Origin: Mesobacillus jeotgali
GTDB taxonomy: Bacteria; Bacillota; Bacilli; Bacillales; Cytobacillaceae
DNA: 64,000 nucleotides
Direction of reading: 5' to 3'
Assembly: GCF_014856545.2 (NCBI RefSeq)
Contig: NZ_CP109811.1
Coordinates: forward strand, 2,350,001-2,414,000
Made by a program: the position numbers and the translations under genes. This document shows, piece by piece, positions 11,615 to 47,690 of the stretch; within the stretch, counting starts at the first letter, position 1, and each line of letters begins with the position of its first letter. Below the pieces are notes generated by a model that was not told where the DNA came from, did not search any database, and saw only the letters and a program-made list of their open reading frames with translations.

Positions 11615-12335
11615 TGACTTCGGACAAGTTTTGATGAAGAGGCCGAAAAGCTGTCCGAACTTGGCGTGACTTCGGACAAGTTTAGATGAGAAGACCGAAA
11701 AGCTGTCCGAACTTGGCATGACTTCGGACAAGTTTAGATGAAAAGCTCGAAAAGCTGTCCGAACCTAGCATGAATTTGGACAAGTTTAGAAGAAAAACAC
11801 CAAAAGCTGTCCGAACTTAGCGTGACTTCGGACAAGTCTAGATGAAAAGCACCAAAAGCTGTCCGAACCTAGCATGACTCCGGACAAGTTTAAAGGAAAA
11901 GCACCAAAAGCTGTCCGAACTTGGCGTGACTTCGGACAAGTTTAGAAGAAAGGCACCAAAAGCTGTCCGAACTTGGCGTGACTTCGGACAAGTCTAGATG
12001 AAAAGGGCGAAAAGCTGTCCGAACTTGGAGCGACTTCGGACAAGTTTAAAGGAAAAGCACCAAAAGCTGTCCGAACCTGGCATGACTTCGGACAAGTTTT
12101 GATGAAAAGCACCAAAGCTGTCCGAACCTAGCATGACTTCGGACAAGTTTTGATGAAAAGCACCAAAAGCTGTCCGAACTTGGCATGACTTCGGACAAGT
12201 TTAGAAGAAAGGCACCAAAAGCTGTCCGAACTTAGCGTGACTTCGGACAAGTCTAGATGAAAAGCACCAAAAGCTGTCCGAACTTGGCGTGACTTCAGAC
12301 AAGTTTAGAGGAAAAGCAATAATAGTTGTCAGAGC
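11615..12335. repeat. 52-bp tandem array 1 (14 hairpin units)
   Basis: Fourteen head-to-tail units average 52 bp; left arms start at about 11624, 11676, 11728, 11780 and so on to 12297. Each unit contains CTTCGGACAAGTTT, a variable middle (TAGATGAAAAGCACC or similar) and AAAAGCTGTCCGAAC, so the ends TTCGGACA and TGTCCGAA pair into a hairpin. The spacer TTGGCGTGA or CTAGCATGA joins units. The last unit (12297-12335) and the fourth are degenerate. Units differ by a few bases each, as expected of an old array under drift or gene conversion. It is not CRISPR because there are no unique spacers. No gene overlaps it convincingly. Confidence 0.95.
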
Positions 12336-12424
12336 TGAAGTCAAAAGATTCACTTTCCTTTTTTCTTGTTCTTTTGTATCATATTATTGTTAGGAAATTT
12401 AAGGAAATGAAGGAGGGGATTAAT

Positions 12425-12496
12425 ATGATAACTGATAAAATTATAATTCAACCCTATACGACGGTTTATTTTTCCCCTTTTATGATGAATAAGTAA
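12425..12496 (+). CDS. Possible 23-residue leader peptide before the acetyltransferase
   Basis: ATG at 12425 is preceded by GAAGGAGGGGAT, an excellent ribosome binding site, and encodes MITDKIIIQPYTTVYFSPFM then MNK before TAA. The stop codon lies in a small hairpin, and a terminator follows 20 bp later, ahead of the GNAT gene. This order is that of ribosome-mediated attenuation leaders upstream of antibiotic-resistance genes. The peptide itself matches nothing I know. Confidence 0.5.
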   Translation: MITDKIIIQPYTTVYFSPFMMNK

Positions 12497-12549
12497 CAAC
12501 TTATTATTTTCACGACAAGACCTTCGTAAAAAACGGAGGTCTTTATTTA
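12489..12549 (+). promoter_or_regulatory. Candidate attenuator: stop-codon hairpin plus terminator
   Basis: AATAAGT and ACTTATT (12489-12506) form a 7-bp stem covering the leader-peptide stop. AAGACCTTCG (12517-12526) and CGGAGGTCTT (12534-12543) form a terminator stem followed by TATTTAT. The terminator stands about 50 bp before the acetyltransferase ATG, so read-through would be needed to express it from any upstream promoter. A separate promoter between 12550 and 12600 cannot be excluded. Confidence 0.5.
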
Positions 12550-12601
12550 TGTTTTGGTATCCTTCCTAACAAAATAATATGAATCTAAGGAGTAACAATA
12601 T

Positions 12602-13189
12602 ATGGAGATCAGAAATTATATGAAGGAAGATGAAATTGGTTGGGTACATTGCAGAATACTTTCTTTTTTAGATACAGCCTATTTTGATAACGTTTTAAAG
12701 GAAAAAGAAAGTTATGACAATCCATCAATTGAGTTAGTAGCTGTGATTGATAATAAAATTGTAGGTCTATTGGATATTGAATATGAAACAGAAGAGCGAA
12801 CAGTATGTTCCAGAGGGAAGGGACTTGGCGGAATGATGTGGCATATAGCAGTCCATCCTGACTTTCGTCGAAGGGGAATAGGCAAGAGTCTCCTGTTGGA
12901 AGCTGAAAGAATTTCTAAAGATCTTGGCTTGAACCGGATTGAAGCATGGACAAGGGATGATGAATGGGTAAATAAGTGGTATGAGAATAACATGTTTGTA
13001 AAAGCAGCATCATATTTTCATGTATTTATTGATGCGGGAGAAGAATTAAGAGGAACGAATAAAACTGAAATTCCTGGCTTATATCCCATTCAAACATTTG
13101 CACATTATGTTGGAAATAACAGAGAAATGATTAAGAATAAATTTAAACGAGTTCACGAATGCAATTGTTATGAGAAACAATTGTTATAG
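12602..13189 (+). CDS. GNAT-family N-acetyltransferase
   Basis: A 195-residue acetyl-CoA-dependent acetyltransferase. The acetyl-CoA binding motif A is clear: MMWHIAVHPDFRRRGIGKSL at about residues 78-98, followed by the helix LLEAERISKDLGLNRIEAWT and the motif B region WYENNMFVK. The C-terminal 50 residues are less typical. The substrate is unknown; resistance to an antimicrobial or polyamine acetylation are possibilities suggested by the attenuator-like leader. The ATG follows AAGGAG. Confidence 0.85.
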   Translation: MEIRNYMKEDEIGWVHCRILSFLDTAYFDNVLKEKESYDNPSIELVAVIDNKIVGLLDIEYETEERTVCSRGKGLGGMMWHIAVHPDFRRRGIGKSLLLEAERISKDLGLNRIEAWTRDDEWVNKWYENNMFVKAASYFHVFIDAGEELRGTNKTEIPGLYPIQTFAHYVGNNREMIKNKFKRVHECNCYEKQLL

Positions 13190-13221
13190 ATTAAAATTTT
13201 CATATAGAGTATTTGTAAAAC

Positions 13222-13260
13222 AACAAGAACGCCTGGGAAAACCCAGGCGTTCTTGTTGTT
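13222..13260. terminator. Bidirectional terminator between GNAT gene and bioB
   Basis: A perfect stem ACAAGAACGCCTGGG/CCCAGGCGTTCTTGT with AAAA loop and T/A tracts on both sides, serving both convergent genes. Confidence 0.88.
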
Positions 13261-13264
13261 GATG

Positions 13265-14260
13265 CTAATTAACTGTTATTTCTTCTTTCGTAAATTCAAT
13301 TTCAAACCCCAAATCCTGAAGCATTTTATGGTCAGCAGTCGTTTCTTGCCCTGCTGTTGTCAGATAATCTCCAACAAAGATTGAGTTGGCAGGGTAAAGG
13401 CCAAGAGGCTGCAGGCTTCGCAAATTAACTTCTCTGCCACCGGAAATCCTGATTTCTTTTGTTGGATTGATGAATCGCATCAGGCAAAGGACTTTTAGGC
13501 AATATCGAGGATTCAATTCATCGGTTCCCTCAAGAGGGGTACCGTCAATCGCGTGGAGGAAATTGACTGGAATTGAATCGGCGTCCAGTGCCTTCAGGCT
13601 CCTGGCCATTTCGATTACATCTTGCTTTGTTTCCTTCATTCCTATAATCACTCCGGAGCATGGTGAAATTCCGGAATTTTTAACAAGCTCTACAGTATTA
13701 ACGCGATCTTCATATGTATGCGATGTCGTGATGGCATTGTGATGGTTAGAGGAAGTATTGAGATTATGGTTATATCGGTCAACACCAGCAGACTTGAGTC
13801 TTTCAGCTTGTGAAGGTTTGAGAATTCCTAGACAGGCGCAAACCTTCAGGCCATATTTCGCTTTGATTTCCTCCACTGCCGAAGTAACAGTATCAATTTC
13901 CTTTTCACTTGGTCCTCTGCCGCTTGCAACGATGCAATAAGTGCCGGCATTCAGGTTAAACGCCTGTTCTGCTCCTTTTAGGATCGTGTCCTTATCCATC
14001 ATCCGATACTTTTGGATAGGGGCCTCGGAGACGCTCGACTGCGCACAATAACCGCAATTTTCTGGACACATTCCCGATTTTGTATTGATAATCATATTTA
14101 GCTTAACCCGATTTCCATAATAGTGATGGCGTATCGTGTATGCTGCCTGGAGTAATTCGAGCAGTTCCAGGTCGGGACATTCAAGTATACTTAAAGCCTT
14201 TGCATCAGTCAGCTCGTTCCCACCAAGTACGCCCTGCGCTAAATCCTTCCAGTATCCCAT
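13265..14260 (-). CDS. bioB: Biotin synthase
   Basis: Radical-SAM enzyme that inserts sulfur into dethiobiotin, the last step of biotin synthesis. The radical-SAM 4Fe-4S motif is CPENCGYC (near residue 67, within TKSGMCPENCGYCAQSS), followed by YCIVASGRGPSE, YNHNLNTS and RISGGREVNLR with the conserved Arg near the 2Fe-2S cluster. The 331-residue length is normal. ATG follows AAAGGGGGAT, 15 bp after bioY. No other bio genes are in the window, so the pair may salvage dethiobiotin or biotin taken up by BioY, or complement genes elsewhere. Confidence 0.97.
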   Translation of the reverse strand: MGYWKDLAQGVLGGNELTDAKALSILECPDLELLELLQAAYTIRHHYYGNRVKLNMIINTKSGMCPENCGYCAQSSVSEAPIQKYRMMDKDTILKGAEQAFNLNAGTYCIVASGRGPSEKEIDTVTSAVEEIKAKYGLKVCACLGILKPSQAERLKSAGVDRYNHNLNTSSNHHNAITTSHTYEDRVNTVELVKNSGISPCSGVIIGMKETKQDVIEMARSLKALDADSIPVNFLHAIDGTPLEGTDELNPRYCLKVLCLMRFINPTKEIRISGGREVNLRSLQPLGLYPANSIFVGDYLTTAGQETTADHKMLQDLGFEIEFTKEEITVN

Positions 14261-14275
14261 TCATTGATCCCCCTT

Positions 14276-14866
14276 TTAAGCTGTTTTTCTTAAATGCTTG
14301 AAACTGCCTTTGGACAAAACAGATTTTTCGAGTCTGTGACCCAACATGCCGGCGAATACAGCAAGGATGATGTCTTTGGGAAGAGGGGCAACCATCCATA
14401 GCCAAGCCATTTTATAGGTAAAGCCCTCTGGTGCAGCGGCCCAGAATTTATAAGCAAAGTACATCCAGTTCGTTCCGAATACATAATTGATAACAAGACC
14501 AATTAATGATGCAATGATAAAAGCTGATAAAGTGCGGTTCTTTTCAACAACTTTACCTGCAACATAGGCTGTTAGGATAAATGAAAGGATAAATCCGAAT
14601 GTTGGACTTATGAAAGTAGACATGCCAGCGCCGAACTTGGCAAACACCGGTACACCCACTAAACCAACTAGCGCGTATACAGTCATTGAAATTGCTCCCA
14701 GCCGGCTCCCAAGGATGATCCCTGCCAGAATCGCAAAAAAGGTTTGGAGTGTAATCGGTACCCCGCCAACTGTCATAAACGGCACAAACGATGTTATGTT
14801 CGCCCCAATAGCCATAAGGCCTACGAACATGGATGCCAGAGTTAAATCAAGTGCTTTAAACTTCAT
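14276..14866 (-). CDS. bioY: Biotin transporter, BioY substrate-binding component
   Basis: A 196-residue integral membrane protein with about six helices, the S component of an ECF-type vitamin importer. BioY features: the N-terminal LTLASMFVGLMAIGANI, the GGVPITLQTFFAILAG segment, and LVGVPVFAKFGAGMSTFISPTFGF. It can work with a shared EcfAA'T module, which is not in this window. It is first in a bioY-bioB operon, directly behind a BirA-type operator, so it should be repressed when biotin is plentiful. Confidence 0.95.
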   Translation of the reverse strand: MKFKALDLTLASMFVGLMAIGANITSFVPFMTVGGVPITLQTFFAILAGIILGSRLGAISMTVYALVGLVGVPVFAKFGAGMSTFISPTFGFILSFILTAYVAGKVVEKNRTLSAFIIASLIGLVINYVFGTNWMYFAYKFWAAAPEGFTYKMAWLWMVAPLPKDIILAVFAGMLGHRLEKSVLSKGSFKHLRKTA

Positions 14867-14899
14867 GTAAATTGCTCTCCTTTTCTGTAATATAAATTC

Positions 14900-14951
14900 A
14901 GAATAAACTTTTTGAATATTTTATGTCAACTTAAAAATAATTAAGTTAACA
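14900..14951 (-). promoter_or_regulatory. bioY promoter overlapped by a BirA operator
   Basis: On the minus strand TTGACA (-35, 14929-14924) and TATTCT (-10, 14905-14900) are 18 bp apart. The -35 lies inside a long palindrome, TGTCAACTTAA...TTAAGTTAACA (14924-14951), with 11-bp arms and one mismatch. This fits the GTTAAC/GTTGAC-type site bound by the biotin-protein-ligase repressor BirA in Firmicutes. Confidence 0.78.
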
Positions 14952-15116
14952 AATATCGATCAATAAACCCTTGAGTTTAGGAGATTAGAAGTTATGAGCG
15001 TAATTAAAACTTGTAGATTTTGAGATAGCAGGTTTTACAGTGGAACGTTTTTATCGATTTTTAAACGAAGGCTGTTTTTGTTGTTAAAATCCTTTACAGT
15101 TGGTCGTTAAAAATAA

Positions 15117-15147
15117 ACAAGGTGCACGGATAATCCGTGCACCTTGT
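15117..15147 (-). terminator. Terminator of the 102-residue protein gene
   Basis: Perfect stem ACAAGGTGCACGGA/TCCGTGCACCTTGT with a TAA loop, followed on the minus strand by TTATTTTT. Confidence 0.8.
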
Positions 15148-15148
15148 A

Positions 15149-15457
15149 TTATCTAACGCGATTATGCATTGCCCGTTCAGGCAATGGACGATCTATATCC
15201 TTGTTTTTATCAGTTTCTAATTCGGGGTTCTCTGTTGGGTCATCCTTGTAATCTTCAAAAGCGGGTTCCCCCATATCCAGCTCCCCTGGACTGAAAGCAT
15301 TCGTTGGATACTCTTTGGTCGATTTTTTTTCGACATTATAGCCTGAAATGGAACTGTTGACAGGATGATCTTTTTCATCTTTTATCTTCCCGATTGAATC
15401 TATTTCTTCTTTTTCGTTTTTGTATGATTTGAGGACATGCTTTTTCTCAATTTCCAT
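15149..15457 (-). CDS. Hydrophilic protein of unknown function
   Basis: A 102-residue, highly charged, Asp/Glu/Lys/Pro-rich protein without hydrophobic core (MEIEKKHVLKSYKNEKEEID...), probably disordered. A ribosome binding site (AGGAGG) lies upstream of the ATG, and a strong terminator follows. Such proteins are frequent in Bacillus and often unannotated. No motif suggests a function. Confidence 0.65.
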   Translation of the reverse strand: MEIEKKHVLKSYKNEKEEIDSIGKIKDEKDHPVNSSISGYNVEKKSTKEYPTNAFSPGELDMGEPAFEDYKDDPTENPELETDKNKDIDRPLPERAMHNRVR

Positions 15458-15620
15458 TGCGATCAGCCTCCTATCGGTTTTATTTACTTATACCCAAGAT
15501 ATAATACAGACTAACTTTTACTTTTTTTCCATGGCTGGTCTTTTTAGACTATCTTTCTGGTAAAATATTTTTAATCGAAGATGTTTTTGCATCTAAATCG
15601 GATAAAGGGGATACATTACT

Positions 15621-16586
15621 GTGAAGAAAAAGATCATTTGGATTGCAGGCGGGATCATTCTGGCAATTTTCATCGGACTGACTGCTGCAGGGAATTACTT
15701 TTATAATGTCGCCATAAATCGGAGCCAGGAATCTGTAGAACTCCATGGCGGCGGGGAAAGTGTCACGGCAGCCAAACTGTTAAGTGAAGAAGAGGAGCAG
15801 AAGAAGTTGGAGGAAATTACAGCCTGGACCAAGAAACAAAAATTTGAAGTGGTCGAAATTAAATCAGAAGACGGACTAAGGCTGAAGGCTCGTTTTTTAA
15901 AGAATGATCAGTCCTCTGGGAAAGCTGTGATTCTAGCTCACGGTTATAAAGGGAACAGTGAACAGATGCCAGGAATCACGAAGTTTTATTATGAGCAGGG
16001 GTATGATATTCTTAAGCCTGATGCGAGGGGGCACGGCCTTAGCGAAGGGGACTATATAGGTTATGGCTGGCATGATCGCAAGGATTATGTGCGGTGGTCT
16101 CAATTCTTAGCTGAAGAAGCTGGGGCTGATGAAATTTTTCTGCACGGTTTTTCCATGGGTGCTGCGACCGTCCTGATGGCGAGCGGGGAAAAGCTGCCGG
16201 AGCAGGTTAAGGGAATAATAGCTGACAGTGGGTATACGACGGTGCTTGAAGAACTAAGCCACCAATTGAAATACATGTATAAGCTCCCATCATTCCCGGT
16301 GATGCAGGTTACCAGTGTGATTACGAATTTACGGGCAGGCTACACTTTTGCAGAAGCCTCGGCTATTGACAGTGTTGCGAAAAATAAACTTCCTTTACTC
16401 ATCATCCACGGTGACAAGGATGCATTAGTCCCAACTGAAATGGGAATACGTATTTTTGAAAGAGCAAACAGTGATAAAGAGCTTTGGATTGTCCCAGGCG
16501 CCGGTCATACGGAAGCATATACAATCGCTGAGCAGGAGTATCAAGAAAAATTAAAGGCCTTCTGGACGAAAGCCATAGGAAAATAG
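15621..16586 (+). CDS. Membrane-anchored alpha/beta hydrolase (YqkD-like)
   Basis: A 321-residue serine hydrolase. An N-terminal hydrophobic helix (residues 4-26, IIWIAGGIILAIFIGLTAAG) anchors or exports it. The core has HGYKGN (oxyanion loop), DARGHGLSEGDYIGYGWHDR, the nucleophile elbow GFSMGA, the acid in IHGDKDALVP and the His in GAGHTEAY. This matches the B. subtilis YqkD group. GTG start with AAAGGGG upstream. The next gene begins within 10 bp, so the two hydrolases form an operon. The substrate is unknown; an esterase is likely. Confidence 0.86.
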   Translation: MKKKIIWIAGGIILAIFIGLTAAGNYFYNVAINRSQESVELHGGGESVTAAKLLSEEEEQKKLEEITAWTKKQKFEVVEIKSEDGLRLKARFLKNDQSSGKAVILAHGYKGNSEQMPGITKFYYEQGYDILKPDARGHGLSEGDYIGYGWHDRKDYVRWSQFLAEEAGADEIFLHGFSMGAATVLMASGEKLPEQVKGIIADSGYTTVLEELSHQLKYMYKLPSFPVMQVTSVITNLRAGYTFAEASAIDSVAKNKLPLLIIHGDKDALVPTEMGIRIFERANSDKELWIVPGAGHTEAYTIAEQEYQEKLKAFWTKAIGK

Positions 16587-16595
16587 GTGAATTTC

Positions 16596-17453
16596 ATGCA
16601 AACAATTGAAAGAATAGGCGAGCGTTTTTGGTATATGACGCCTGTTTCTGAGACAGACAGGCCGATCCTCGGTATAGTTGCAGGGAAAGAAAAAACACTG
16701 ATGATTGACGCTGGAAACTCTGAAGCGCACGTTACTCTTTTCATGGATATGGTTAAAGAGCAAGGTGTATCTGCGCCCGCTTATGTGGTTTTGACACATT
16801 GGCATTGGGACCATATTTTCGGACTGTCTGCGCTTGGAAATACTATATCCATCTCTTCTGGAAAAACGAAGAAGGAAATTGATAAGCTGCGCCATTTATC
16901 CTGGTCAGATGAGGCAATAGATCAAAGGGTAGAAGAAGGAACAGAAATTGAATTTTGCGCGAATGCTATAAAACAAGAGTTTCCCGATAATCGGGACATT
17001 ACAATAACCCTGCCAGAGATGACCTTTAAAGAAGAAATGGAGATTGACCTTGGCGAAATAACTTGTATCATCAAGCATGTAGGTGGTGACCATGCAGAAG
17101 ATTCGGTTGTCATTTATGTCAAAGAGGAAAAGATACTATTCCTGGCTGACAGCATTTATCCAGATATCTTTGCTGTTAAAGATAACTATACAATCGAGGG
17201 AATAAGAGATTTGCTCAGTAAAATTGAAGCCTTTGATGCTGACACCTACATACTGTCACATTCAGGGATACTTTCTAAAGAAGAATTCTTTCAGGAAGCG
17301 AATCTCCTTAGATCTATCGCTGATTTAACTGAAAAGCATCATGGAGATTCTAAAATGATGATCGAGGACTATAGAAAAAAGGTTAATAGAGACCTTGCAG
17401 AGGAAGAACTCGAAACAATTGAATACTTCGTCAATGGATTTGAGGCGAGATGA
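16596..17453 (+). CDS. Metallo-beta-lactamase-fold hydrolase
   Basis: A 285-residue protein with the zinc-binding motif LTHWHWDHIFG (HxHxDH) near residue 70, GGDHAEDSVVIYV for the next ligand, LADSIYPD, and a C-terminal LSHSG histidine. These are the ligands of MBL-fold hydrolases. The substrate is unknown; family members include lactonases and thioesterases. ATG 16596 is chosen over GTG 16587 because AGGTGA lies 6 bases before it. It is translationally close to the YqkD-like gene. Confidence 0.85.
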   Translation: MQTIERIGERFWYMTPVSETDRPILGIVAGKEKTLMIDAGNSEAHVTLFMDMVKEQGVSAPAYVVLTHWHWDHIFGLSALGNTISISSGKTKKEIDKLRHLSWSDEAIDQRVEEGTEIEFCANAIKQEFPDNRDITITLPEMTFKEEMEIDLGEITCIIKHVGGDHAEDSVVIYVKEEKILFLADSIYPDIFAVKDNYTIEGIRDLLSKIEAFDADTYILSHSGILSKEEFFQEANLLRSIADLTEKHHGDSKMMIEDYRKKVNRDLAEEELETIEYFVNGFEAR

Positions 17454-17483
17454 AACACACCCAATTAGGTGTGTTTTTATTTT
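17454..17483 (+). terminator. Terminator of the hydrolase operon
   Basis: AACACACC/GGTGTGTT stem followed by TTTATTTTT. Confidence 0.82.
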
Positions 17484-17666
17484 TACCAGGGTAAATACGA
17501 ATGGGGTGCTGTTTGTGATTAAATGCAGGAGCTCTCCATCTCTGCGATAACCGCAATCATCTCTAAGTGGTCCGTTCGCAGCGAGTTACTTAAAAAAAGG
17601 ACAAAGTATAAATCCGTTTGAAAAACATATATCTCTTAAAGGATATTCATCAAAGGAGGAGAGAGC

Positions 17667-18119
17667 ATGCCAGAAGGAAAGCACGACATCATGATTGATG
17701 TGCCAATCGAACAGGTCTGGGATTTCGTGAAAGACATGGACAACTGGGCACCTTTATTGCCTGGGTATATTAGTCACGAAAAGCTGAATGATAAGCAGTC
17801 TAACTGGACCTTTAAGGAAACGGTAGGTGTTTTGAAAAAGAAAATCAGCTTACAGGTTACGATCAAGGAGTGGATTGAACCAACTAGAGTGACCTTTGAA
17901 TTGAAGGGTATTAATGAAAACCTGGCTGGAAATGGTTATTTTAACGCAGAAAGCCTTGGTCAAAACCGGACAAAGATGACTGGTTATCTGCAAATGACGG
18001 CAGAAGGTGCCCTTGCACCTGTCATGAATGCTGTCATGAAGAACTCACTCCCGAAAAGCGGGCAGGAGCTTACCGAAGCAATCGCGGAGAAACTTGAGCA
18101 AAGAAAAGCAATTCGGTGA
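17667..18119 (+). CDS. CoxG/SRPBCC-family protein
   Basis: A 150-residue START/Bet v1-like fold protein of the carbon-monoxide-dehydrogenase subunit G (CoxG) group. Signs are the N-terminal IDVPIEQVWDFVKDMDNWAPLLPGY, typical of SRPBCC proteins, and a C-terminal amphipathic helix. Members bind hydrophobic ligands; in CO-oxidisers CoxG recruits the enzyme or carries quinone. No coxL/M/S genes are nearby, so a general lipid- or quinone-binding role is more likely. The ATG follows AAAGGAGGAGAG. Confidence 0.8.
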   Translation: MPEGKHDIMIDVPIEQVWDFVKDMDNWAPLLPGYISHEKLNDKQSNWTFKETVGVLKKKISLQVTIKEWIEPTRVTFELKGINENLAGNGYFNAESLGQNRTKMTGYLQMTAEGALAPVMNAVMKNSLPKSGQELTEAIAEKLEQRKAIR

Positions 18120-18151
18120 AAGTTGCAGGGAGCTCGCATAACACTGGCTCC

Positions 18152-18457
18152 CTATTCTGTTTTCTCAATTTTCACTGGTCCATCAATCCGTCCACTTTTG
18201 TCAAAATACAGAATTACATCATCTCCATTTTTTATTTTTTGGGATGATTCCACTTTTTCTTTTTTAAAATAAATGCTTCTACCATCCGCGCTTTCCCCAT
18301 AATATCCAGAGCTGTCAACCTTATTGATGGTGTATTCTTCAGTAAAATACTCTGTTTCAACCTCATTGGAAACTTGTCGCGCTACGTCCATTTCAAACTT
18401 CAGGAAAACCATCAGTCCAAGAAGAAGAGTCAGTAAAAACAGCAATAATACCCTCAT
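18152..18457 (-). CDS. Small membrane-anchored protein, unknown
   Basis: A 101-residue protein with an N-terminal membrane helix or signal (MRVLLLFLLTLLLGLMVFL) and a soluble beta-rich part including VDSSGYYGESADGRSIYFKK and GDDVILYFDKSGRIDGPVKI. The latter looks like a small OB- or SH3-like barrel exposed outside. ATG 18457 has GTGGAGGA ahead of it; the longer frame from 18490 lacks one. It converges with the CoxG gene, with a GGGAGC/GCTCCC hairpin between them. Confidence 0.66.
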   Translation of the reverse strand: MRVLLLFLLTLLLGLMVFLKFEMDVARQVSNEVETEYFTEEYTINKVDSSGYYGESADGRSIYFKKEKVESSQKIKNGDDVILYFDKSGRIDGPVKIEKTE

Positions 18458-18583
18458 TTGTTTATCCTCCACTGCATAATCCGTAAACATTATATGAAGC
18501 GGGCTTGTCTAAATGACTTAATTCATTGAAAAAGTTTGCTATAATGATAGAAAAAATCGAAGGAATGACAGAAGGGTTGACAC

Positions 18584-19294
18584 ATGACGAAACTATATGA
18601 AGCCGATTTATATGAGCCAATCCGAAAACATTTTTCCAAACAAGGCTACCGAGTCAATGGTGAAGTACACGATTGCGATTTAACGGCTGTTAAGGATGAA
18701 GAACTCATTATCGTCGAATTAAAACTGAACCTGAAAATTGATCTTTTGCTTCAGGCAACGAGAAGACAGCGCCTGACTGATCTTGTATATATCGCGATTC
18801 CGAAACCAAAGAGGATATCAAGGAAACGCTGGAATGATATAACCCAGTTAGTAAGAAGGCTTGAACTGGGCCTGATTATTGTATCGTTAGCTGGAAATCA
18901 AAAAAAGATTGAGTTCAAGGTTCACCCGGAACCATATAAGCGCATGACCAGCAAGAACACCAGGAAGAAAGTAGCCTTGATTAAAGAAATAGAAGGAAGA
19001 AGCGCTGATTACAATATCGGCGGAAGCAACAAAACCAAGATCATGACTGCCTACAAAGAAAATTGCATCCAAATCGCCTGTTACCTTGAAAAACTTGGAC
19101 AAATGTCTCCAAAAGCGCTTGTTGCACTCGGAACAGGGGATAAGACACCCTTGATTCTGCAGAAAAACTATTACAAATGGTTTGAACGAGTGGAGAGAGG
19201 TATTTATGTCATCACCGAGCAGGGAAAGGCCGATCTTAAAGACTATCCTGAGCTTGTAGAATATTACTTAGGTGGATTGAAAACGGAAGATTGA
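18584..19294 (+). CDS. DUF2161 protein with PD-(D/E)XK nuclease-like fold
   Basis: A 236-residue protein. The N-terminal 80 residues carry a PD-(D/E)XK-type motif: VHDCDLTAVKDEELIIVELKL, with Asp and the Glu-x-Lys pair at about 32 and 46-48. A central basic region (KPKRISRKRWND) follows. The C-terminus looks like a winged-helix domain (QIACYLEKLGQMSPKALVALG...GIYVITEQGKADL). DUF2161 proteins are predicted nuclease- or phosphodiesterase-like, with no established role. It is a single gene, not next to a methylase, so a restriction enzyme is unlikely. Confidence 0.78.
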   Translation: MTKLYEADLYEPIRKHFSKQGYRVNGEVHDCDLTAVKDEELIIVELKLNLKIDLLLQATRRQRLTDLVYIAIPKPKRISRKRWNDITQLVRRLELGLIIVSLAGNQKKIEFKVHPEPYKRMTSKNTRKKVALIKEIEGRSADYNIGGSNKTKIMTAYKENCIQIACYLEKLGQMSPKALVALGTGDKTPLILQKNYYKWFERVERGIYVITEQGKADLKDYPELVEYYLGGLKTED

Positions 19295-19660
19295 TTTAGA
19301 GCTGCGGAAGTGAATCGGGTTGTGTCAACATTATTTGAAACTGCAAATTAAAATTCCATAGAAAGTAACAGTATTTAAAGTTAACTGGTAAAAAACGCTT
19401 AAAATTTCCAGTTCGCCAATATATTTTTATTTTCGCCAATAAAGTTGTGAAAACCGCCAATAAATTTTGTTTTAAAAATAAATTCGCTAGCAAATAGGCA
19501 TAATTTAAGGGGATTTTAGTTGCGAATTAGACTAAAATGCAAAAATTAAGCAACTTATGCTTGCTTTTATATCGTTCATCTACCAATATAGCGAGAAAAA
19601 CTAAATTCCGATAACATATAAGCAAAGCAAAGACCGCCGCAACCATAACCTTCACATTAA
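19295..19660. other. AT-rich gene-less stretch with spaced CGCCAATA motifs
   Basis: About 370 bp without a credible gene. CGCCAATA occurs three times at 19414, 19434 and 19455, spaced 20-21 bp (two helical turns), embedded in very AT-rich sequence; a decayed fourth copy may be TTCGCTAGCAAATA near 19484. No promoter or terminator for the DUF2161 gene could be defined. Confidence 0.5.
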
Positions 19661-19670
19661 AATAAAAAAA

Positions 19671-19711
19671 AACGGGGAGAAACAACTAAACTGTTTTCTC
19701 CCCGTTTTTTT
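19671..19711. terminator. Terminator of the TetR gene
   Basis: AACGGGGAGAA/TTTTCTCCCCGTT stem with A- and T-tracts on both sides; reads as a terminator on the minus strand and possibly on both. Confidence 0.82.
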
Positions 19712-22301: not shown

Positions 22302-22307
22302 TTTCTT

Positions 22308-39379: not shown

Positions 39380-39400
39380 TTACAGTTAGTAGCCATTCTT

Positions 39401-39510
39401 CTTATCTGCCAAGTTTCAAGAACTTGCTGGAATTAGCACCTTTTCAACAAAAATATAGTTGAAGGTTGCTGAAGCTTCACAGGGCCAGACCCTCAGCTTC
39501 TCTGGATAAG
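39401..39510 (-). ncRNA. SAM-I (S-box) riboswitch aptamer
   Basis: Reading the minus strand from 39510: CTTATCCAGAGAAGCTGAGG, then GGTCTGGCCCTGTGAAGCTT, CAGCAACC, a variable P3/P4 region and GGTGCTAATTCCAGCAAG, closing with GATAAG that pairs with the opening CTTATC (P1). These are the conserved blocks of the S-box. It controls the metI-metC-yitJ-metH operon by SAM-dependent transcription termination at the hairpin just downstream. Confidence 0.96.
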
Positions 39511-39649
39511 ATTTAATATTATTGAATTATTAAATTTCTCTAAATATTACATCTGATCATGTTCAATGTCAATCATTTTAATTTAATGCGGTGAAGTATA
39601 TATGCATAAGGTGTAAGATTAATAGAAGTATCTGGCAAGGCAAAGTAAT

Positions 39650-40370
39650 TTTTTTTGACAGCTTTTTAGTGGATGAGGGCAAAGCTTTTAAGATTCCGGA
39701 GGTTTTATGACAGCTTTTCTGGTTCCGAAGCCAAAGCTGTCATGATTCCGATGTTATTGTGACAGCTTTTCTGGTTCCGAAGCCAAAGCTGTCATGATTC
39801 CGATGTTATTGTGACAGCTTTTCTGGTTGCAAGGCCAAAGCTGTCACGATTCCGGTGTTATTGTGACAGCTTTTCTGGATCCGAGATCAAAACTTTCACG
39901 ATTCCGATGTTATTGTGACAGCTTTTCTGATTGCAAGGCCAAGGCTGTCACGATTCCAATGTTATTGTGACAGGTTTTCTGGTTCCGAGGCAAAGCTGTC
40001 ACGATTCCGATGTTTTATGACAACTTTCCAGGTTACAGGCCAAAGCTGTCACGATTCCGATGTTATTGTGACAGCTTTCTGGTTCGAGGCCAAAGCTGTC
40101 ACGATTCCGATGTTATTGTGACAGCTTTCTGATTGCAAGGCCAAAGCTGTCACGATTCCAATGTTATTGTGACAGGTTTTCTGGTTCCGAGGGCAAAGCT
40201 GTCACGATTCCGATGTTTTTATGACAACTTTCCAGGTTACAAGGCCAAAGCTGTCACGATTCCGATGTTATTGTGACAGCTTTTCTGGTTGCAAGGCCAA
40301 AGCTGTCACGATTCGAATGTTATTGTGACAGGTTTTCATGATTAGCTGCCAAAGGTGTCACGATTCCGTA
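39650..40370. repeat. 52-bp tandem array 2 (14 hairpin units)
   Basis: Fourteen units of about 52 bp; left arms near 39656, 39708, 39760, 39812, 39864, 39916, 39968, 40017, 40069, 40120, 40172, 40222, 40274 and 40325. A typical unit is GTGACAGCTTTTCTGGTTCC, a short variable part, CCAAAGCTGTCACGATTCCG, ATGTTATT. GACAGCTTT and AAAGCTGTC pair around a 15-nt loop. Variants are shared between units: four successive units beginning near 39929 reappear about 203 bp later near 40132, so a block duplication has occurred. It lies between the S-box leader and the bacillolysin terminator. It has no unique spacers, so it is not CRISPR. Confidence 0.95.
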
Positions 40371-40444
40371 CCCTCAATCCCGCTTTAATCAAAATCAATA
40401 TTCCGTTCTCTCATTAAAACGAGAAGGCGAGGGAGCAGCAGCAT

Positions 40445-40480
40445 AAAAAGACTGGCTCACAAGAATAGATGAGCCAGTCT
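40445..40480 (-). terminator. Terminator of the bacillolysin gene
   Basis: AGACTGGCTCA/TGAGCCAGTCT stem followed on the minus strand by TTTTTATG. Confidence 0.85.
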
Positions 40481-40497
40481 GACTAAATATAAAGTTA

Positions 40498-42153
<1,656 letters not shown>

Positions 42154-42183
42154 CTATCTAATAGGAATTAGTAGATTATCATA

Positions 42184-42212
42184 TTTATACTTTAATAGTC
42201 TGAACATTTCAA
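42184..42212 (-). promoter_or_regulatory. Promoter of the bacillolysin gene
   Basis: On the minus strand TTGAAA (-35), 17 bp, TATAAA (-10), about 55 bp before the TTG start. Confidence 0.6.
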
Positions 42213-42312
42213 CAACTAAGTCTAAAATTGTCGAATATGCATGTTGGGAAATATTTTTGACCTAAGAGTGAATGGATAAATATGGGATTTTAAGAAAAGT
42301 AGTCAGAATTTA

Positions 42313-42342
42313 TTGACTAATTCAGCAATATATTTTTATTAT
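42313..42342 (+). promoter_or_regulatory. Promoter of cstA
   Basis: TTGACT (42313-42318), 18 bp, TATTAT (42337-42342), about 40 bp before the cstA ATG. Confidence 0.5.
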
Positions 42343-42383
42343 TAAGTTGTAATACCAACTCATAAAAAAGGAGGTTTATAAAA

Positions 42384-44126
42384 ATGAATTCTTTATGGTT
42401 AGCCGTGATCGGAATGATTGTCTTTGCGATTGGCTATCGCTTCTATTCCAAGTGGGTAGCAGAAAAGATTTACCGTCTCGATCCTAACTACGTTACACCG
42501 GCACACCAGTATTCGGATGGGGTGGATTTTGTCCCAACGAAGAAAATGATCTTATGGGGCCACCATTTTACCTCTGTTGCCGGAGCTGCACCGATTGTCG
42601 GACCAGCAATCGCTGTATATTGGGGATGGCTTCCTGCATTCCTGTGGGTTACTTTGGGGACGGTCTTCGCGGCAGGTGTCCATGACTTCGGAACTCTTGT
42701 CCTGTCAGTCAGGAATAAGGGACAGTCAGTAGGAACAATCACAAATAAGCTGATTGGCAAACGTGCGAAAATCATGTTCTTATTCATTATTTTAATACTT
42801 GTTTTGATGGTAAACGCTGTTTTTGCATGGGTTATCGCGAACTTATTTGTCAGCTTCCCGGCAAGCGTCCTGTCGGTATTCCTGCAAATTCCGCTGGCAA
42901 TCTGGATTGGCTATGCTGTTTATAAAAAGAAAAAAGGTATGCTTCTGCCTTCATTGGTTGCACTTGCGGTCATGTATGGTGCCGCAATCCTGGCCAGCCG
43001 TGTACCAGCCTTACAGATTGATCTTGTGAAATACTTTGGCGGAGCGGATAACACCGTCATGTTTGGCCTTAGTGGTGTATCAATGGCATTCTTAGTCTGG
43101 ATTATCGTGTTGATGGTTTATGTGTACATTGCTTCAACACTGCCGGTCTGGAAGCTCCTTCAGCCTCGTGATTATATCAATTCACACCAGTTGGTTGTAG
43201 GTTTATTCATTTTATATGCTGGGTTAGTCTTCCTTCAGCCTGAGGTTACAGCTCCTGCAATGAATGCAGCGGCTACTGATGTTTCCTGGTTTCCGCTATT
43301 GTTCATCACTATTGCCTGTGGTGCTATTTCCGGTTTCCATGGACTAGTTTCATCGGGTACATCCTCCAAGCAGCTGGAAAAAGAAACGGATGCCCGTTTT
43401 GTTGGTTATCTTGGTGCGGTTGGGGAAGGTATTCTTGCACTGATTGCCATCATTGCGGTTATCACTGTTTTTGCGACTAAGGCTGATTTTACTGCGGCGT
43501 ATTCAAGCTTTGCGGCTGCAAGCTCAGGCGGTCTTGGCAACTTCATCAATGGTGCTGCCCAGCTTGCGACTGGCATCTGGATTCCTGCGGACATCGCAAG
43601 GACAATTGTTTCCATCATCGTTGTCAGCTTTGCCGCAACAACTTTGGATACATCAGTAAGATTGATGCGTTATATCATTGCTGAGATTGGAAGCGAATAT
43701 AATGTCCAGGCTTTGACTAAAACTCATGTAGCGACAACAGTCGCAGTTGTTTCCAGTGCAGCGCTTGTACTATTGCCAAAAGGTCCTAATGGATTCGGTT
43801 CTGGTGGATACCTGTTGTGGCCGCTGTTCGGAACAAGCAACCAGCTATTGGCAGGTGTAAGCCTTCTGCTTGTATCCATCTGGTTGAAGCGTCAGGGAAG
43901 GAATTATCTAGTTACTTTCATCCCAATGGTATTCGTTTTCTTCATGACACTCTGGGCTATGATTCAGCAAGTCGTTTTCCAGTGGTCTGGATATGGGGGA
44001 GGGGAGCTGAATATGCTGCTCTTTGGTATCGGCGGACTGATTTTGATATTTGTCTTCTGGATCATCATCGAGGCATTCTCAGCCTTCAGCAGGAATAATC
44101 CACCGCCATTAAGCAAGGAAATGTAA
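42384..44126 (+). CDS. cstA: CstA-family peptide/pyruvate transporter (carbon starvation)
   Basis: A 580-residue membrane protein with many helices. CstA proteins import peptides or pyruvate during carbon limitation. Family signs: GYRFYSKWVAEKIYRLD, WGHHFTSVAGAAPIVGPAIA, GVHDFGTLVLSVRNKGQSVG, CGAISGFHGLVSSGTSSKQL, SFAATTLDTSVRLMRYII and PLFGTSNQLLAGVSLLL. ATG follows AAAGGAGG. Downstream genes encode a small cory-CC-star protein and an ArsA-type ATPase, with short gaps, so all three are probably one operon. The transported substrate cannot be read from the sequence. Confidence 0.94.
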   Translation: MNSLWLAVIGMIVFAIGYRFYSKWVAEKIYRLDPNYVTPAHQYSDGVDFVPTKKMILWGHHFTSVAGAAPIVGPAIAVYWGWLPAFLWVTLGTVFAAGVHDFGTLVLSVRNKGQSVGTITNKLIGKRAKIMFLFIILILVLMVNAVFAWVIANLFVSFPASVLSVFLQIPLAIWIGYAVYKKKKGMLLPSLVALAVMYGAAILASRVPALQIDLVKYFGGADNTVMFGLSGVSMAFLVWIIVLMVYVYIASTLPVWKLLQPRDYINSHQLVVGLFILYAGLVFLQPEVTAPAMNAAATDVSWFPLLFITIACGAISGFHGLVSSGTSSKQLEKETDARFVGYLGAVGEGILALIAIIAVITVFATKADFTAAYSSFAAASSGGLGNFINGAAQLATGIWIPADIARTIVSIIVVSFAATTLDTSVRLMRYIIAEIGSEYNVQALTKTHVATTVAVVSSAALVLLPKGPNGFGSGGYLLWPLFGTSNQLLAGVSLLLVSIWLKRQGRNYLVTFIPMVFVFFMTLWAMIQQVVFQWSGYGGGELNMLLFGIGGLILIFVFWIIIEAFSAFSRNNPPPLSKEM

Positions 44127-44182
44127 TGAAATGGAGGCCGGGCGACCGGTCTCTATTGTCATTTTTAGAAAGAGAGGTAATC

Positions 44183-44449
44183 ATGATGGGTTTCTACGAA
44201 CAATTCAAGCGTGCAATAGCTGTTTATGATGAGATTCTCAGGCAGCCGCACAGGACAGAAATAGCACGTGAATTGAGAGATGAGGAAGACCTGTTTATGC
44301 TGCTTTGCTTTTCGGAATTGCTCGGCCTGCCCAACCCTGCATTTTACTATACGCTTGAACTTTACCCGGTCATCATCGAGCGTTTTCATGATTGGCATTT
44401 GCGGGCAGGTATGGAAAAATCACCGCTCGAAGGAATACGCTGCTGTTAG
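44183..44449 (+). CDS. Cory-CC-star protein
   Basis: An 88-residue protein ending in Arg-Cys-Cys immediately before the stop, the defining feature of the cory-CC-star family. The rest is mostly helical (FYEQFKRAIAVYDEILRQ, DLFMLLCFSELLGLPNPAFYYTLELYP). The function is unknown. A terminal Cys pair could bind a metal, a cofactor or another protein. The gene sits between cstA and an ArsA/Get3-like ATPase, with GAGGT ahead of its ATG; the 3' end is 11 bp before the ATPase start. Confidence 0.82.
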   Translation: MMGFYEQFKRAIAVYDEILRQPHRTEIARELRDEEDLFMLLCFSELLGLPNPAFYYTLELYPVIIERFHDWHLRAGMEKSPLEGIRCC

Positions 44450-44460
44450 GAGGAGCTGAT

Positions 44461-45426
44461 ATGACGATGATGGACAAGAAGATCTATTTTATCGGTGGAA
44501 AAGGCGGCGTTGGCAAAAGTACAACATCTGCAGCCATGGCGCTCTTACTCGCACAAAAAGGGAAAAGGATCCTGCTGGTTTCAACCGATCCGGCCCATAA
44601 TACAGGGGATCTATTCCATCGGAAACTCCGTGGAGGAAAAATTGAGAATGCCACCCGGAATCTCGATGTACTGGAGATTGACTCTGAGCAGGAGTCCAGG
44701 AACTATATCAATGGTGTAAAAGGCAACTTGAAAGGCCTGGTGAAAGCGACGATGCTTGAGGAGGTCAACAGGCAGATAGACATGGCGGCATCCTCGCCTG
44801 GGGCAGAAGAAGCAGCGCTGTTTGACAAAATCACCTCATTGGTTCTGGAGGAAATCACCAACTATGATGCCATTGTTTTTGATACAGCACCGACAGGACA
44901 TACAATCCGGCTGCTGACTCTGCCCGAATTGATGGGCGTTTGGATGGACGGGCTGTTGGAACGGCGCAAAAAAGTAAATGAAAATTACGCACAGTGGATG
45001 AACGATGGTGAAACCGTCGATGACCCTTTATATGACAAGCTGAATGAACGAAAGAACCGTTTTAAGCGCGTACGAGAAATACTGCTTGATGGTACACAAA
45101 CGGAGTATGTATTTGTACTTAACGCAGAGCGCCTTCCTATCCTTGAAACGATTAAGGCAATCGAAACACTGCACCAGCATGGCATACATGTTAACTCAAT
45201 CGTTGTCAACAAGGTCATTCCCGAAGATGCAGATGGTCGGTTCATGGCGCAAAGAAGAACGAACGAGCGATTGTATTTAGATGAAATCAAGGATGCATTC
45301 AAGAATCAGAGGCAGGTTTTATTGCCGCTCCTGGAGCATGATATTTCCTCGCTTAGCACACTGGAGTTCATTTCGGATCTTTTAGGAAAACAAATCGATT
45401 CAATCTTGAACCATAGCCAAATGTAG
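44461..45426 (+). CDS. ArsA/Get3-family ATPase
   Basis: A 321-residue P-loop ATPase of the deviant Walker A type: GGKGGVGKSTTSAAMA near residue 12 (with the signature Lys), DPAHNTGDL switch I, and DTAPTGHTIRLL switch II. This is the ArsA/Get3 class, single-domain form. No arsB, arsD or arsR is near, so arsenite efflux is unlikely. Being third in the cstA operon, it may drive assembly or insertion of the transporter or act with the neighbouring CC-terminal protein. ATG follows AGGAGGAG. Confidence 0.88.
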   Translation: MTMMDKKIYFIGGKGGVGKSTTSAAMALLLAQKGKRILLVSTDPAHNTGDLFHRKLRGGKIENATRNLDVLEIDSEQESRNYINGVKGNLKGLVKATMLEEVNRQIDMAASSPGAEEAALFDKITSLVLEEITNYDAIVFDTAPTGHTIRLLTLPELMGVWMDGLLERRKKVNENYAQWMNDGETVDDPLYDKLNERKNRFKRVREILLDGTQTEYVFVLNAERLPILETIKAIETLHQHGIHVNSIVVNKVIPEDADGRFMAQRRTNERLYLDEIKDAFKNQRQVLLPLLEHDISSLSTLEFISDLLGKQIDSILNHSQM

Positions 45427-45541
45427 AGTTTTCATCTTGCTTATTAGGGTTATATAAATACATGGATAATTTTTTGAGTTGTATGGAAACTAAAGCTAAT
45501 GATGAGCGGAAGGAATCTGCCATACAGAAAGGGGCACTAAA

Positions 45542-46219
45542 ATGAGGCGGATCTATGCAGGTTCGATTACATCTTATAGTCAGTTCGGACACTTGAAGGT
45601 CCCAAAGGGTATTAAAAATATCTGTCCAGTATGCAAGGAAAAAGTTGAATTTGTCCTTAAGTCGACTTATCAGAGCAGCAAACATGGACTGATGACTGAA
45701 AGTTCTTGTCCCTCATGCAAACACAGCGTTCCGTTTGTTATCATTACAAGGGATAATGAAACTCAGCCCGATGTATACATATATGATCCACAAAGCTCCA
45801 CAGATCCAACAAGCCAGATACAGCACATTCCCAAAATTCCCGAAGAATTGGTAAGGGCATATAAATCGGCAGTCAGCGTCTATCTTTCAAAAGAGAATAC
45901 AGCCACTGCAGTACTGGCCAAGCGTGTCATCGAGAATGTTCTAAAAAACTTTTTGGGTGACAAGTCAAAGGGCATGACTCTTGATCAGCAATTCGAGATC
46001 CTTCCAGACCATATTAATTTAGTAAATCCAGTGACCTCATTAAGCCCCTTGTTGAAACCTGAAGGGGGACTCCATAGGATGCTTGAGTTGGAAACGGACA
46101 TGGATGATGAAATGACAGAACTAATAATGGATTTACTGGAGGATTTGATACAGTACCTGTTCGTTTTACCCGGAAAAATTGAGATGACCCGGGAACAAAT
46201 CGAAAAGAAGTTAAATTGA
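45542..46219 (+). CDS. DUF4145 protein with N-terminal zinc ribbon
   Basis: A 225-residue protein. A likely zinc ribbon occupies residues 28-60 (CPVCKEKV...SSCPSCKHSV). From about 95 there is a DUF4145-like helical domain: VRAYKSAVSVYLSKENTATAVLAKRVIENVLKNFL, found in proteins near restriction or toxin genes and in many standalone proteins. No methylase or toxin is near. Role unknown. ATG follows AAAGGGG; terminator downstream. Confidence 0.8.
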   Translation: MRRIYAGSITSYSQFGHLKVPKGIKNICPVCKEKVEFVLKSTYQSSKHGLMTESSCPSCKHSVPFVIITRDNETQPDVYIYDPQSSTDPTSQIQHIPKIPEELVRAYKSAVSVYLSKENTATAVLAKRVIENVLKNFLGDKSKGMTLDQQFEILPDHINLVNPVTSLSPLLKPEGGLHRMLELETDMDDEMTELIMDLLEDLIQYLFVLPGKIEMTREQIEKKLN

Positions 46220-46230
46220 TTTGATTTTAA

Positions 46231-46258
46231 GCAGCTTCCATGGGAGGCTGTTTTTTTG
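46231..46258 (+). terminator. Terminator of the DUF4145 gene
   Basis: GCAGCTTCC/GGAGGCTG(T) imperfect stem followed by TTTTTTT. Confidence 0.72.
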
Positions 46259-46290
46259 GTATAGTAGGAGGGGTAAAAGGGGGAGCAGCA

Positions 46291-47484
46291 GTGAATTACA
46301 TAAAGAAATTTAGTTTGATATTTGCCATCGTGATGGCATTTTTTATTTTACCAACCCTGGCCTCGGCGCATAATGGCTCGCGGGATGAACTGGGCGGACA
46401 TTTCCGAAATGCAGATTGCGTATATATCCTTCATGAGCCTACTTCGATTACCAAAAGCGCAGCCAATATTGGCGAGCTTATCCGATTGATTCATCAGTAT
46501 AACAATAATTCTGATTGTGCAGCCGGACTCAGTGAGGAAAAAATAGATTTGGAGGGGTATACTTTCTCAGGTGCAGGAAAAGTTGCGCCAGAATCTAATC
46601 AGGCTGCAGACGAAATGCATAGAGCTGAAGTTTCTTCCGGCAATTTGCAGCTTGGAAAAGTGTACGAGGCAGAATTGTCAGATTGCACAGACGGGGATAC
46701 GGCTGTGTTTACGATCAACGGAAAAGACTATAAAACACGTTTTCTCTATATTGATACCCCTGAAAGCACAAGGACGAAGGAGCCATTTGGACCGGAAGCA
46801 GCACAGTATACATGTTCCTTTTTAAAGCAGGACAATATTAAACTTGAGACGGATGGCGGAAGCCTTTTCGATAAATATGATCGACTTCTGGCATGGGTTT
46901 GGGTAGGAGACAAGCTGCATCAGGAGGAAATCACGAAGGCAGGACTGGTCGAAGACTTTTACGATTATGGCAGCTATAAGTATGAAAATCGAATCCGATC
47001 TGCGATGGATTATGCAAAAGATAAAGGAGAAGGCATATATGCAGCTACGGATGCTCCAAAAGAGAGAAATGAACAATCACAAGAGCAACCTAAAAAACAA
47101 GAGGATCATACCAACCAAGAGCAGCAGCCCAAAAATGATAGGGAAGAAAATCAAATAGAGAGTCAGCCTGATAAAAGGGAAGAAAATACCGAAGTAACTG
47201 ACCAACAGCGTGAATCGAAACAAGAATCCGATCAGGCTGAAACTGCTGATGAAGAATTTGACTGCAACTTTTTAAGCGGCCTGTTGTATGCATTGTTATT
47301 TTACCTCTCACTTCCCATAAAGAAGGCGATGGGGAAGCGGACGCTGATCGCTCACAGATTGTGGAGCAAAAAATGGCCGCTCAATCTGTTACTCGGTGTA
47401 ATTTATGCTTTTCTTTGCTACATTACCTTGCTGCTATCACTAGTAGAAGTGCTCCATCTTTTCAAAAATAAAAAGCGCAAGTGA
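46291..47484 (+). CDS. Exported, membrane-anchored staphylococcal-nuclease-like protein
   Basis: A 397-residue protein. Signal peptide (residues 3-28, FSLIFAIVMAFFILPTLASA), then a 90-residue domain containing HNGSRDELGGHFRNADCVY that recurs in secreted Bacillus proteins, then a thermonuclease domain at about 130-260: DGDTAVFTINGKDYKTRFLYIDTPES, FGPEAAQYT, DKYDRLLAWVWVGDKLHQEEI, GLVEDFY. A Gln/Glu/Lys linker and two C-terminal membrane helices (LSGLLYALLFYLSLPI; NLLLGVIYAFLCYITLLL) anchor it. GTG start with GGGGGAGC upstream. It may degrade extracellular DNA for nutrition or competence. The third repeat array begins at its stop. Confidence 0.85.
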   Translation: MNYIKKFSLIFAIVMAFFILPTLASAHNGSRDELGGHFRNADCVYILHEPTSITKSAANIGELIRLIHQYNNNSDCAAGLSEEKIDLEGYTFSGAGKVAPESNQAADEMHRAEVSSGNLQLGKVYEAELSDCTDGDTAVFTINGKDYKTRFLYIDTPESTRTKEPFGPEAAQYTCSFLKQDNIKLETDGGSLFDKYDRLLAWVWVGDKLHQEEITKAGLVEDFYDYGSYKYENRIRSAMDYAKDKGEGIYAATDAPKERNEQSQEQPKKQEDHTNQEQQPKNDREENQIESQPDKREENTEVTDQQRESKQESDQAETADEEFDCNFLSGLLYALLFYLSLPIKKAMGKRTLIAHRLWSKKWPLNLLLGVIYAFLCYITLLLSLVEVLHLFKNKKRK

Positions 47485-47488
47485 AAAT

Positions 47489-47690
47489 GACGGAAACAAA
47501 TTGACGGAAAATCGAGAAAACTGTCCGTCATCGAGGTTATGACGGACAAAAATTGAACGGGAAATCGGGAAAACTGTCCGTCATCGAGGTTATGACGGAC
47601 ACTAATCGATGGGGAACCGGGAAAACTGTCCGTCATCCCAGGTGATGAAAGACACTAATCACTAGTAATTCTAGAAAACTGGACGCCATC
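47489..47690. repeat. 52-53-bp tandem array 3 (about four hairpin units)
   Basis: Units begin at 47489, 47541, 47594 and 47647. The best ones read GACGGACAAAAATTGAACGG, GAAATCGGGAAAACTGTCCG, TCATCGAGGTTAT. GACGGACA and TGTCCGTC pair across the unit. The first unit has a decayed left arm. The fourth is diverged throughout, and its right part merges with the downstream terminator stem. Layout and spacing match arrays 1 and 2 although the sequence differs. Confidence 0.88.

Follow-up and report, generated by a model that had tools for sequence, protein, structure and literature searches.

What keeps tandem repeats of unlike sequence at one length and one layout within a single chromosome? We addressed this question in a 64,000-bp stretch of Mesobacillus jeotgali (the window, positions 2350001-2414000 of G000:C1, the single 4,835,561-bp contig that makes up the chromosome), which holds three arrays of different sequence. 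A preliminary description of the window had given them a 52-53 bp period and arms reading GACA...TGTC, and both features were found in all three. Tandem Repeats Finder (TRF) placed array 1 at 11606-12318 (period 52, 13.7 copies), array 2 at 39675-40368 (period 52, 13.5 copies) and array 3 at 47487-47659 (period 53, 3.3 copies), and autocorrelation gave periods of 52, 52 and 53; the 9-mer reported there as common to arrays 1 and 2, AAAGCTGTC, also occurs in both. We propose, with a probability of about 0.5, that the arrays are a DNA-level, fork-oriented, phased hairpin platform. Their extents in window coordinates and their units are as follows.

11606-12336, + strand: array 1, 14 units of 52 bp, each a hairpin TGTCCGAA-N11-TTCGGACA (27 nt) followed by a 25-nt linker
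39651-40368, no strand assigned: array 2, 14 units, mostly of 50-52 bp, with arms GACAGCTTT/AAAGCTGTC and a hairpin TGTCACGAT...ATTGTGACA that has a G.T pair on the + strand
47487-47700, + strand: array 3, about 4 units of 52-56 bp (period 53), each a hairpin TGTCCGTCAT-N7-ATGACGGACA (27 nt) followed by a 25-26-nt linker

Period, hairpin geometry and stem pairing

The genome was searched by BLAST with units of the three window arrays (E<=1; 147, 164 and 63 matches), and the matches listed were hand-clustered into 64 further stretches, every one of which was fetched and scanned with TRF plus a lag-match detector. Among the matches listed, an array was present in 61 of the 64 stretches (none in L054, L067 and L083). 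Together with the three arrays of the window and four in 15 even 20-kb stretches, those in the 61 stretches bring the survey total to at least 73. Of 20 stretches planned for the even sample, 15 were used and the five overlapping or adjoining array loci were omitted, which biases its density low; with the density of the window it suggests, very roughly, 65-95 arrays in the chromosome. The lag-match detector reported no array in 227,607 shuffled bases, in agreement with the preliminary view that chance is not the cause. Spacing between successive units was 52 bp in 374 of the 382 intervals of 50-53 bp, hence conserved and not scattered, and the commonest GACA-to-TGTC distance was 29 bp in 67 of 73 arrays, with 23 bp remaining to the next GACA. 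Such a fixed period in unrelated sequences is hard to obtain from drift, which argues against neutral or selfish minisatellites, that is, hairpin-prone sequence that merely amplifies and keeps its arms because amplification needs them.

Read over the unit border, TGTC...GACA spans 27 nt and forms a hairpin of up to 10 pairs with a 7-nt loop; a typical unit is thus a 27-nt hairpin plus a 25-nt linker, with a stem base that is usually NGTC...GACN. Pairing was compared between arrays by aligning a single unit per array; two or more anchored units were required, which left 69 of the 73 arrays, and one row of the alignment (L052) is out of register at its start. Stem covariation scored 0.311, vs 0.100 ± 0.011 after shuffling (none of 500 shuffles reached the observed score) and at most 0.140 in slid registers, and the structure paired 81.2% of cells, vs 66.6% in shuffled alignments and 31-41% in slid registers. 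Column pair 8-20 is AU in 52 arrays, CG in 13 and UA in 3, and column pair 7-21 is AU in 36, GU in 13, UA in 13 and GC in 5; pairs 6-22, 9-19 and 10-18 form in only about half of the arrays. The compensatory changes in the arms that the preliminary description had called for are therefore present, and the conserved feature is pairing, with sequence free.

The arms are also steadier than their surroundings. Over the 69 array consensuses, in which units were anchored on these very bases, GACA/TGTC is invariant except for two A-to-C cells and one C-to-T cell. In arrays of at least four units, departure from the own-array consensus was 0.5-2.3% at GACA/TGTC vs mostly 10-30% in loops, a comparison tilted towards the arms by the rule for anchoring units, which allowed no more than one mismatch in the eight GACA/TGTC bases. 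At the array-3 site, mean consensus identity over 27 units of eight sequences was 0.91 in arms, 0.74 in linkers and 0.65 in the small loop, the choice of the 3' arm as anchor favouring that arm. Between species, sequence is retained longer in arms than in linkers, a second point against minisatellites. These results indicate, with many arrays, a strict period, conserved arms and covarying stem pairs, that either a structure is under selection or the arrays share an amplification mechanism, as had been suggested; neither of the outcomes named beforehand as contrary to structure, a lack of further arrays or arms as free as loops, occurred.

Some other identities were rejected. The linkers are repeated too and are not unrelated spacers, which rules out clustered regularly interspaced short palindromic repeats (CRISPR); array 1 had no match in 72,556 plasmid and 50,697 phage records, and a plasmid or phage origin was rejected on that ground. 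The survey also met repeats of a second kind with a period of 40-41 (L090:5098-5208, L099:9985-10079, L110:11265-11362 and L110:19426-19536; example units TATAGCGA and TATTGGCGA), and 53-bp arrays with CATAAGG/CCTTATG-like arms in G000 and G017 (L109:5745-6149, L219, L225, L227, L228 and L231).

Orientation of the arrays and the genes beside them

In 67 of the 69 scorable arrays the purine-rich strand of the GACA-TGTC loop lies on the leading strand (the other four of the 73 have no scorable loop). The replichore boundary was placed between the window and 2.70 Mb because GC skew changes sign there, being positive in the window and in 9/9 even samples at 0.06-2.24 Mb, and negative in 6/6 from 2.70 Mb on. 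Mean loop purine content was 0.696 left and 0.310 right of the boundary, vs 0.535 and 0.481 in the adjacent 150-bp flanks, so the background purine skew is far weaker than the loop skew. Within the window, the loop of array 1 has a purine fraction of 0.70 on the + strand and that of array 3 one of 0.77 (a single loop scored), and the loop of array 2 has no purine polarity (0.49). In the relative G011, fork orientation held in 13 of 15 scorable arrays (16 fetched), assuming an origin at the contig start and a terminus at 2.5-3.3 Mb. G024 belongs to another genus; its matches were on the + strand at 0.31 and 0.53 Mb and on the - strand at 3.66 and 3.96 Mb. Several BLAST strands disagreed among the matches listed for G011, G019 and G016, in part because palindromes match both strands.

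Orientation could in principle follow transcription. Flanking genes were classed for 65 arrays from crude open reading frame calls of at least 150 aa, and the fork was followed in 25/25 arrays with both genes along it, 19/20 between convergent genes, 11/11 between divergent genes and 8/9 with both genes opposing it. On the last class, transcription was rejected as the main rule of orientation. It also bears on the proposal that the arrays are transcribed RNA hairpin arrays acting as small RNAs or protein sponges, as discussed for Bacillus repeats by Subirana and Messeguer 2021 (PMC8161180, of which we draw on the main text and tables). Three-unit pieces folded as RNA on both strands, which does not discriminate. 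Stem covariation fits RNA, transcription has been reported in B. coagulans (PMC8161180), and the positions of some arrays fit it: four (L032:4003, L033:4003, L034:4009 and L036:4009) begin about 95 bp 3' of the 5S gene of four ribosomal RNA (rRNA) operons, a count that covers these four operons, and array 3 starts 2 bp past the stop of the open reading frame at 46240-47484 and, being so close, may share its transcript. Against RNA stand the orientation with both neighbour genes opposing, the position of 20 of the 65 arrays between convergent genes, and G.T pairs that are no commoner than A.C. The window arrays also lack an Rfam match, and a known RNA family was rejected on that ground: at the curated threshold Rfam gave three matches in the window and none in the arrays, and a scan of L032, L033, L034 and L036 gave none within an array. 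On this balance we regard an RNA array as unlikely.

The three Rfam matches of the window were an S-adenosylmethionine (SAM) riboswitch, which adjoins array 2, and two cspA thermoregulators:

39399-39512, - strand: SAM riboswitch ahead of a Cys/Met metabolism operon
7632-8075, - strand: cspA thermoregulator
50288-50609, + strand: cspA thermoregulator

The earlier placement of the arrays, none overlapping a gene and each at the 3' end or edge of an operon, had to be corrected in two respects: array 3 is possibly within a transcript, as said above, and array 2 lies between an M4 peptidase gene, downstream of which it stands, and the SAM-riboswitch operon, upstream of which it stands.

Position relative to genes is also what recommends a comparison with bacterial interspersed mosaic elements (BIMEs), which are linked to gyrase. 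As BIME-2-like topology sites, the arrays would mark transcription-unit ends and bind gyrase or a nucleoid protein there. They are phased intergenic palindromes at a median distance of 108.5 bp from a gene 3' end and 173.5 bp from a 5' end (crude calls), they follow four rRNA operons, and nucleoid proteins are among the suggestions of PMC8161180. Pairing that covaries while sequence varies speaks against one fixed recognition sequence; we hold this account to be improbable.

A replication-linked polarity is expected of Y1 transposition, which would suit repetitive extragenic palindromic (REP) or BIME elements moved by a REP-associated tyrosine (RAYT, Y1) transposase. In such elements a GTAG or CGTC tetranucleotide adjoins a single REP hairpin. 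The genome does have one Y1 transposase gene:

G000:C1:4307853-4308179, - strand: single Y1 (PF01797) transposase-like gene, in a 192-aa open frame

The 16 kb retrieved around this gene showed no 52-bp array. G006 and G016 have arrays and no PF01797 match, and G008 has PF01797 matches and no array-1 match; array presence does not track the transposase, and on this phyletic mismatch RAYT-driven spread was rejected, leaving this explanation with next to no probability.

IS256-family insertions at the arrays

A 412-aa open reading frame recurs beside the arrays. It matched the PF00872 transposase (E 2.4e-124), which we take to be the IS256/Mutator family of insertion sequences (IS), and its element ends in GATTAAGCCCAT... 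and ...GGGCTTGACT. All six PF00872 genes of the genome lie in or against arrays:

G000:C1:3637350-3638764, 1175713-1177127 and ~1072195-1073609: three identical IS256-family copies, in GACA-type arrays
G000:C1 671612, 2070463 and 3043923: three further relatives, in non-GACA arrays

Each identical copy interrupts its array in a GACA-TGTC loop, with 8-bp duplications read on both sides. The element 5' end, probed in 31 genomes, gave 17 complete ends and one partial match in three genomes of the genus. All 17 complete ends adjoin arrays (period 52 in 12, 53 in 5) whose units are unrelated; the 5' flank alone was read, and a contig edge cuts off the element in four of the 17. In G015, four of the five elements are 5' ends at a contig edge. 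The 53-bp CATAAGG/CCTTATG-like arrays are struck as well (L219, L225, L227, L228 and L231). Insertion points were not uniform over the unit: at 31 sites, 15 fell no more than 2.5 bp from the point midway between hairpins, where a uniform distribution would put about 3; 8 were 4-6.5 bp from the hairpin centre, 2, both in 53-bp arrays, were at the centre of the best-scoring dyad, and 6 were elsewhere. This register set aside sites of G030, G069, G071, G023, G124, G133 and G174, three masked G168 sites and the single-hairpin L282, and kept L220, L277 and L283 despite a poorly periodic upstream flank; in L220 most of the array is downstream, with only about 1.5 units on the upstream side.

A protein search for the transposase in 151 genomes of the family matched 29. 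One locus from each of the 28 other genomes matched (G015 and G017 were rescanned) had a 51-52-bp array in 16 cases, a 40-bp array in 2 and a 42-bp array in 1; in L259, L262 and L268, among the 16, several hundred bases separate the array from the gene, and contact with the element was not shown. In multi-copy genomes, 52-bp arrays held 5/5 copies in G094, 4/4 in G151 and 3/4 in G130 (one weak), and 7-10-bp duplications were found by script for those copies that have them. G168 was scored in part (masked N), copies in G069 and G168 exceed the 2 and 5 fetched, and the G133 and G174 copies (L309, L310) stand outside this scoring. IS256 relatives of 71-72% identity in G071 and G023 were at or near 40-bp arrays: 4/4 copies of the 72%-identity clade of G071 lie within 11 bp of such arrays, and the two fetched G023 copies lie in or near 40- to 60-bp repeats. 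In the control family PF01609, 0/6 copies were shown inside an array, and two (L313, with element ends not delimited, and L314, about 80 bp away) had an array on one side. The link of the IS256-family element to 52-bp arrays elsewhere in the family is strong, not universal.

A proposed hairpin platform among known repeat systems

We favour a DNA-level, fork-oriented platform because pairing is kept with sequence free, the period equals five helical turns, orientation tracks the fork and not the genes, and a transposon reads unit position. Five turns of B-DNA measure 52 bp, so hairpins at this interval would form a phased series along the DNA. They would be extruded, or formed on the single-stranded lagging-strand template, and would offer a directional platform to a structure-reading protein, presumably of the host; the benefit may lie in nucleoid or supercoiling control. 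Replication slippage or recombination would add and remove whole units, keeping the period, and IS256-family transposases would recognize this platform too, preferring certain positions with respect to the hairpins for insertion. Replication orientation and transposon targeting make DNA, rather than an RNA hairpin array, the probable acting molecule, so that the type of structure, which the preliminary description had put as an RNA hairpin array or a protein-binding scaffold, is settled only in part. A stronger version, in which a host factor and the IS256-clade transposase both recognize the hairpins by shape, reading their spacing and not their sequence, is put forward tentatively.

Several observations count against this platform. 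Two of five covariation measures (pair counts and pair types) were not above shuffles, 472 and 256 of 500 being as high, and outer-stem departures within arrays comprise 54 G.T and 60 A.C, which does not single out a strand. Two of the 69 arrays, window array 2 and the array at 4,098,928 (0.55), are exceptions to the orientation, as are 2 of the 15 in G011; four G019 arrays, chosen for an exceptional-looking BLAST strand or nearness to the contig end, split into two that agree and two that disagree, assuming that the contig starts at the origin. Nine of the 28 single transposase loci had no array on the scanned stretch, 52-bp arrays held only 2/5 copies in G030, 0/2 fetched in G069 and 0/3 in G124, and 0/4 copies of a 48%-identity clade in G071 were at arrays. 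The transcription reported in B. coagulans (PMC8161180) would suit RNA.

Copy number varies between species at one site: the unit count at the orthologous array-2 site is 14 here, against 9 in L113 and 3 in L112. The same gap holds a different, GACC/GGTC-type repeat in L119 (7720-8060) and L134 (7510-7840), and no GACA/TGTC-type array in L117, L118 and L156. An array-1 match is missing in 2/20 same-genus genomes (G008 and G015), though G015 has 52-bp arrays of other sequence. This variation in unit number and presence is what minisatellites would produce; set beside the strict period and the arms that outlast linkers, it leaves that explanation doubtful. At the CstA locus, Bacillus sp. ISL-45 and ISL-41 and Mesobacillus species are the closest relatives. 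Beyond the genus, a sample of CstA loci picked without regard to arrays (67 loci, 1.36 Mb) contained 51-53-bp arrays in Sutcliffiella, B. horikoshii, Oceanobacillus, B. infantis, Salinicoccus and Mesobacillus-like records; the B. horikoshii array, 0.99 in an open frame, may be coding. Spaced stretches of ten other genomes held 52-53-bp arrays in G094, G151, G110 and G024 (the last two, 0.99-1.0 in an open frame, possibly coding) and none in those of G008 (140 kb), G030 (100 kb), G042, G045, G036 and G049.

The window arrays are members of a published 52-nt tandem-repeat class of Bacillaceae. A survey of prokaryotic satellites exists (PMC6749651), and PMC8161180 reported 4029 tandem repeats in 176 genomes, 1886 of them of 51-53 nt, in species-specific families whose size is constant while their sequence varies and for which no function was evident, and proposed a possible RNA or nucleoid role. 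The arrays here share the period of 51-53, the constant size with variable sequence, the several families per genome and the short signals often found with their reverse in one repeat. At the detection threshold of PMC8161180, at least four repeats, arrays 1 and 2 pass (about 14 units) and array 3 is borderline at 3.3-4. In its Table 2, AAAGCTGTC is listed among the signals of alkalitelluris, and its Table 1 has B. selenatarsenatis sharing repeats with boroniphilus and subterraneus, both Mesobacillus in genome records. Among 27 consensus units of Table 1, 18 had an inverted repeat at p<0.05 vs shuffles (uncorrected), with a span of 25-29 nt in 10 of the 18; nine fell below significance, all three alcalophilus units included. 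The words hairpin, palindrom, transpos, insertion sequence, leading strand and orientation do not occur in its main text as available, where replication appears once, for 20-21-nt repeats. Judged by a literature search and PMC8161180 only (a 2020 J. Bacteriol. paper, PMC7549362, was not compared), the hairpin-plus-linker unit with its covariation, replichore polarity, IS256 targeting and arms that outlast linkers are new here.

For this published puzzle, covariation shows that what is conserved is pairing, replichore polarity tells that the process followed is replication, and IS256 insertions record, as a genetic footprint, that something reads the arrays by their geometry; with these three results the question becomes approachable by pull-down, chromatin immunoprecipitation (ChIP) and transposition assays. 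If the tentative shape-recognition version is true, the arrays would be a sequence-independent, strand-polar safe landing platform in bacteria. The 20-21 and 40-41-nt Bacillus repeats of PMC8161180 are likewise constant-size, non-coding tandem repeats; they differ in period, and their hairpin layout was not established in this analysis. REP elements as described by Tobes and Pareja 2006 (PMC1525189) are, like the arrays here, intergenic palindromes struck by particular IS, five families being named, IS256 among them, with in some cases 100% of IS copies in REP, at the symmetry axis. There, each type-1 IS has one conserved target sequence, whereas the targets here share geometry and not sequence.

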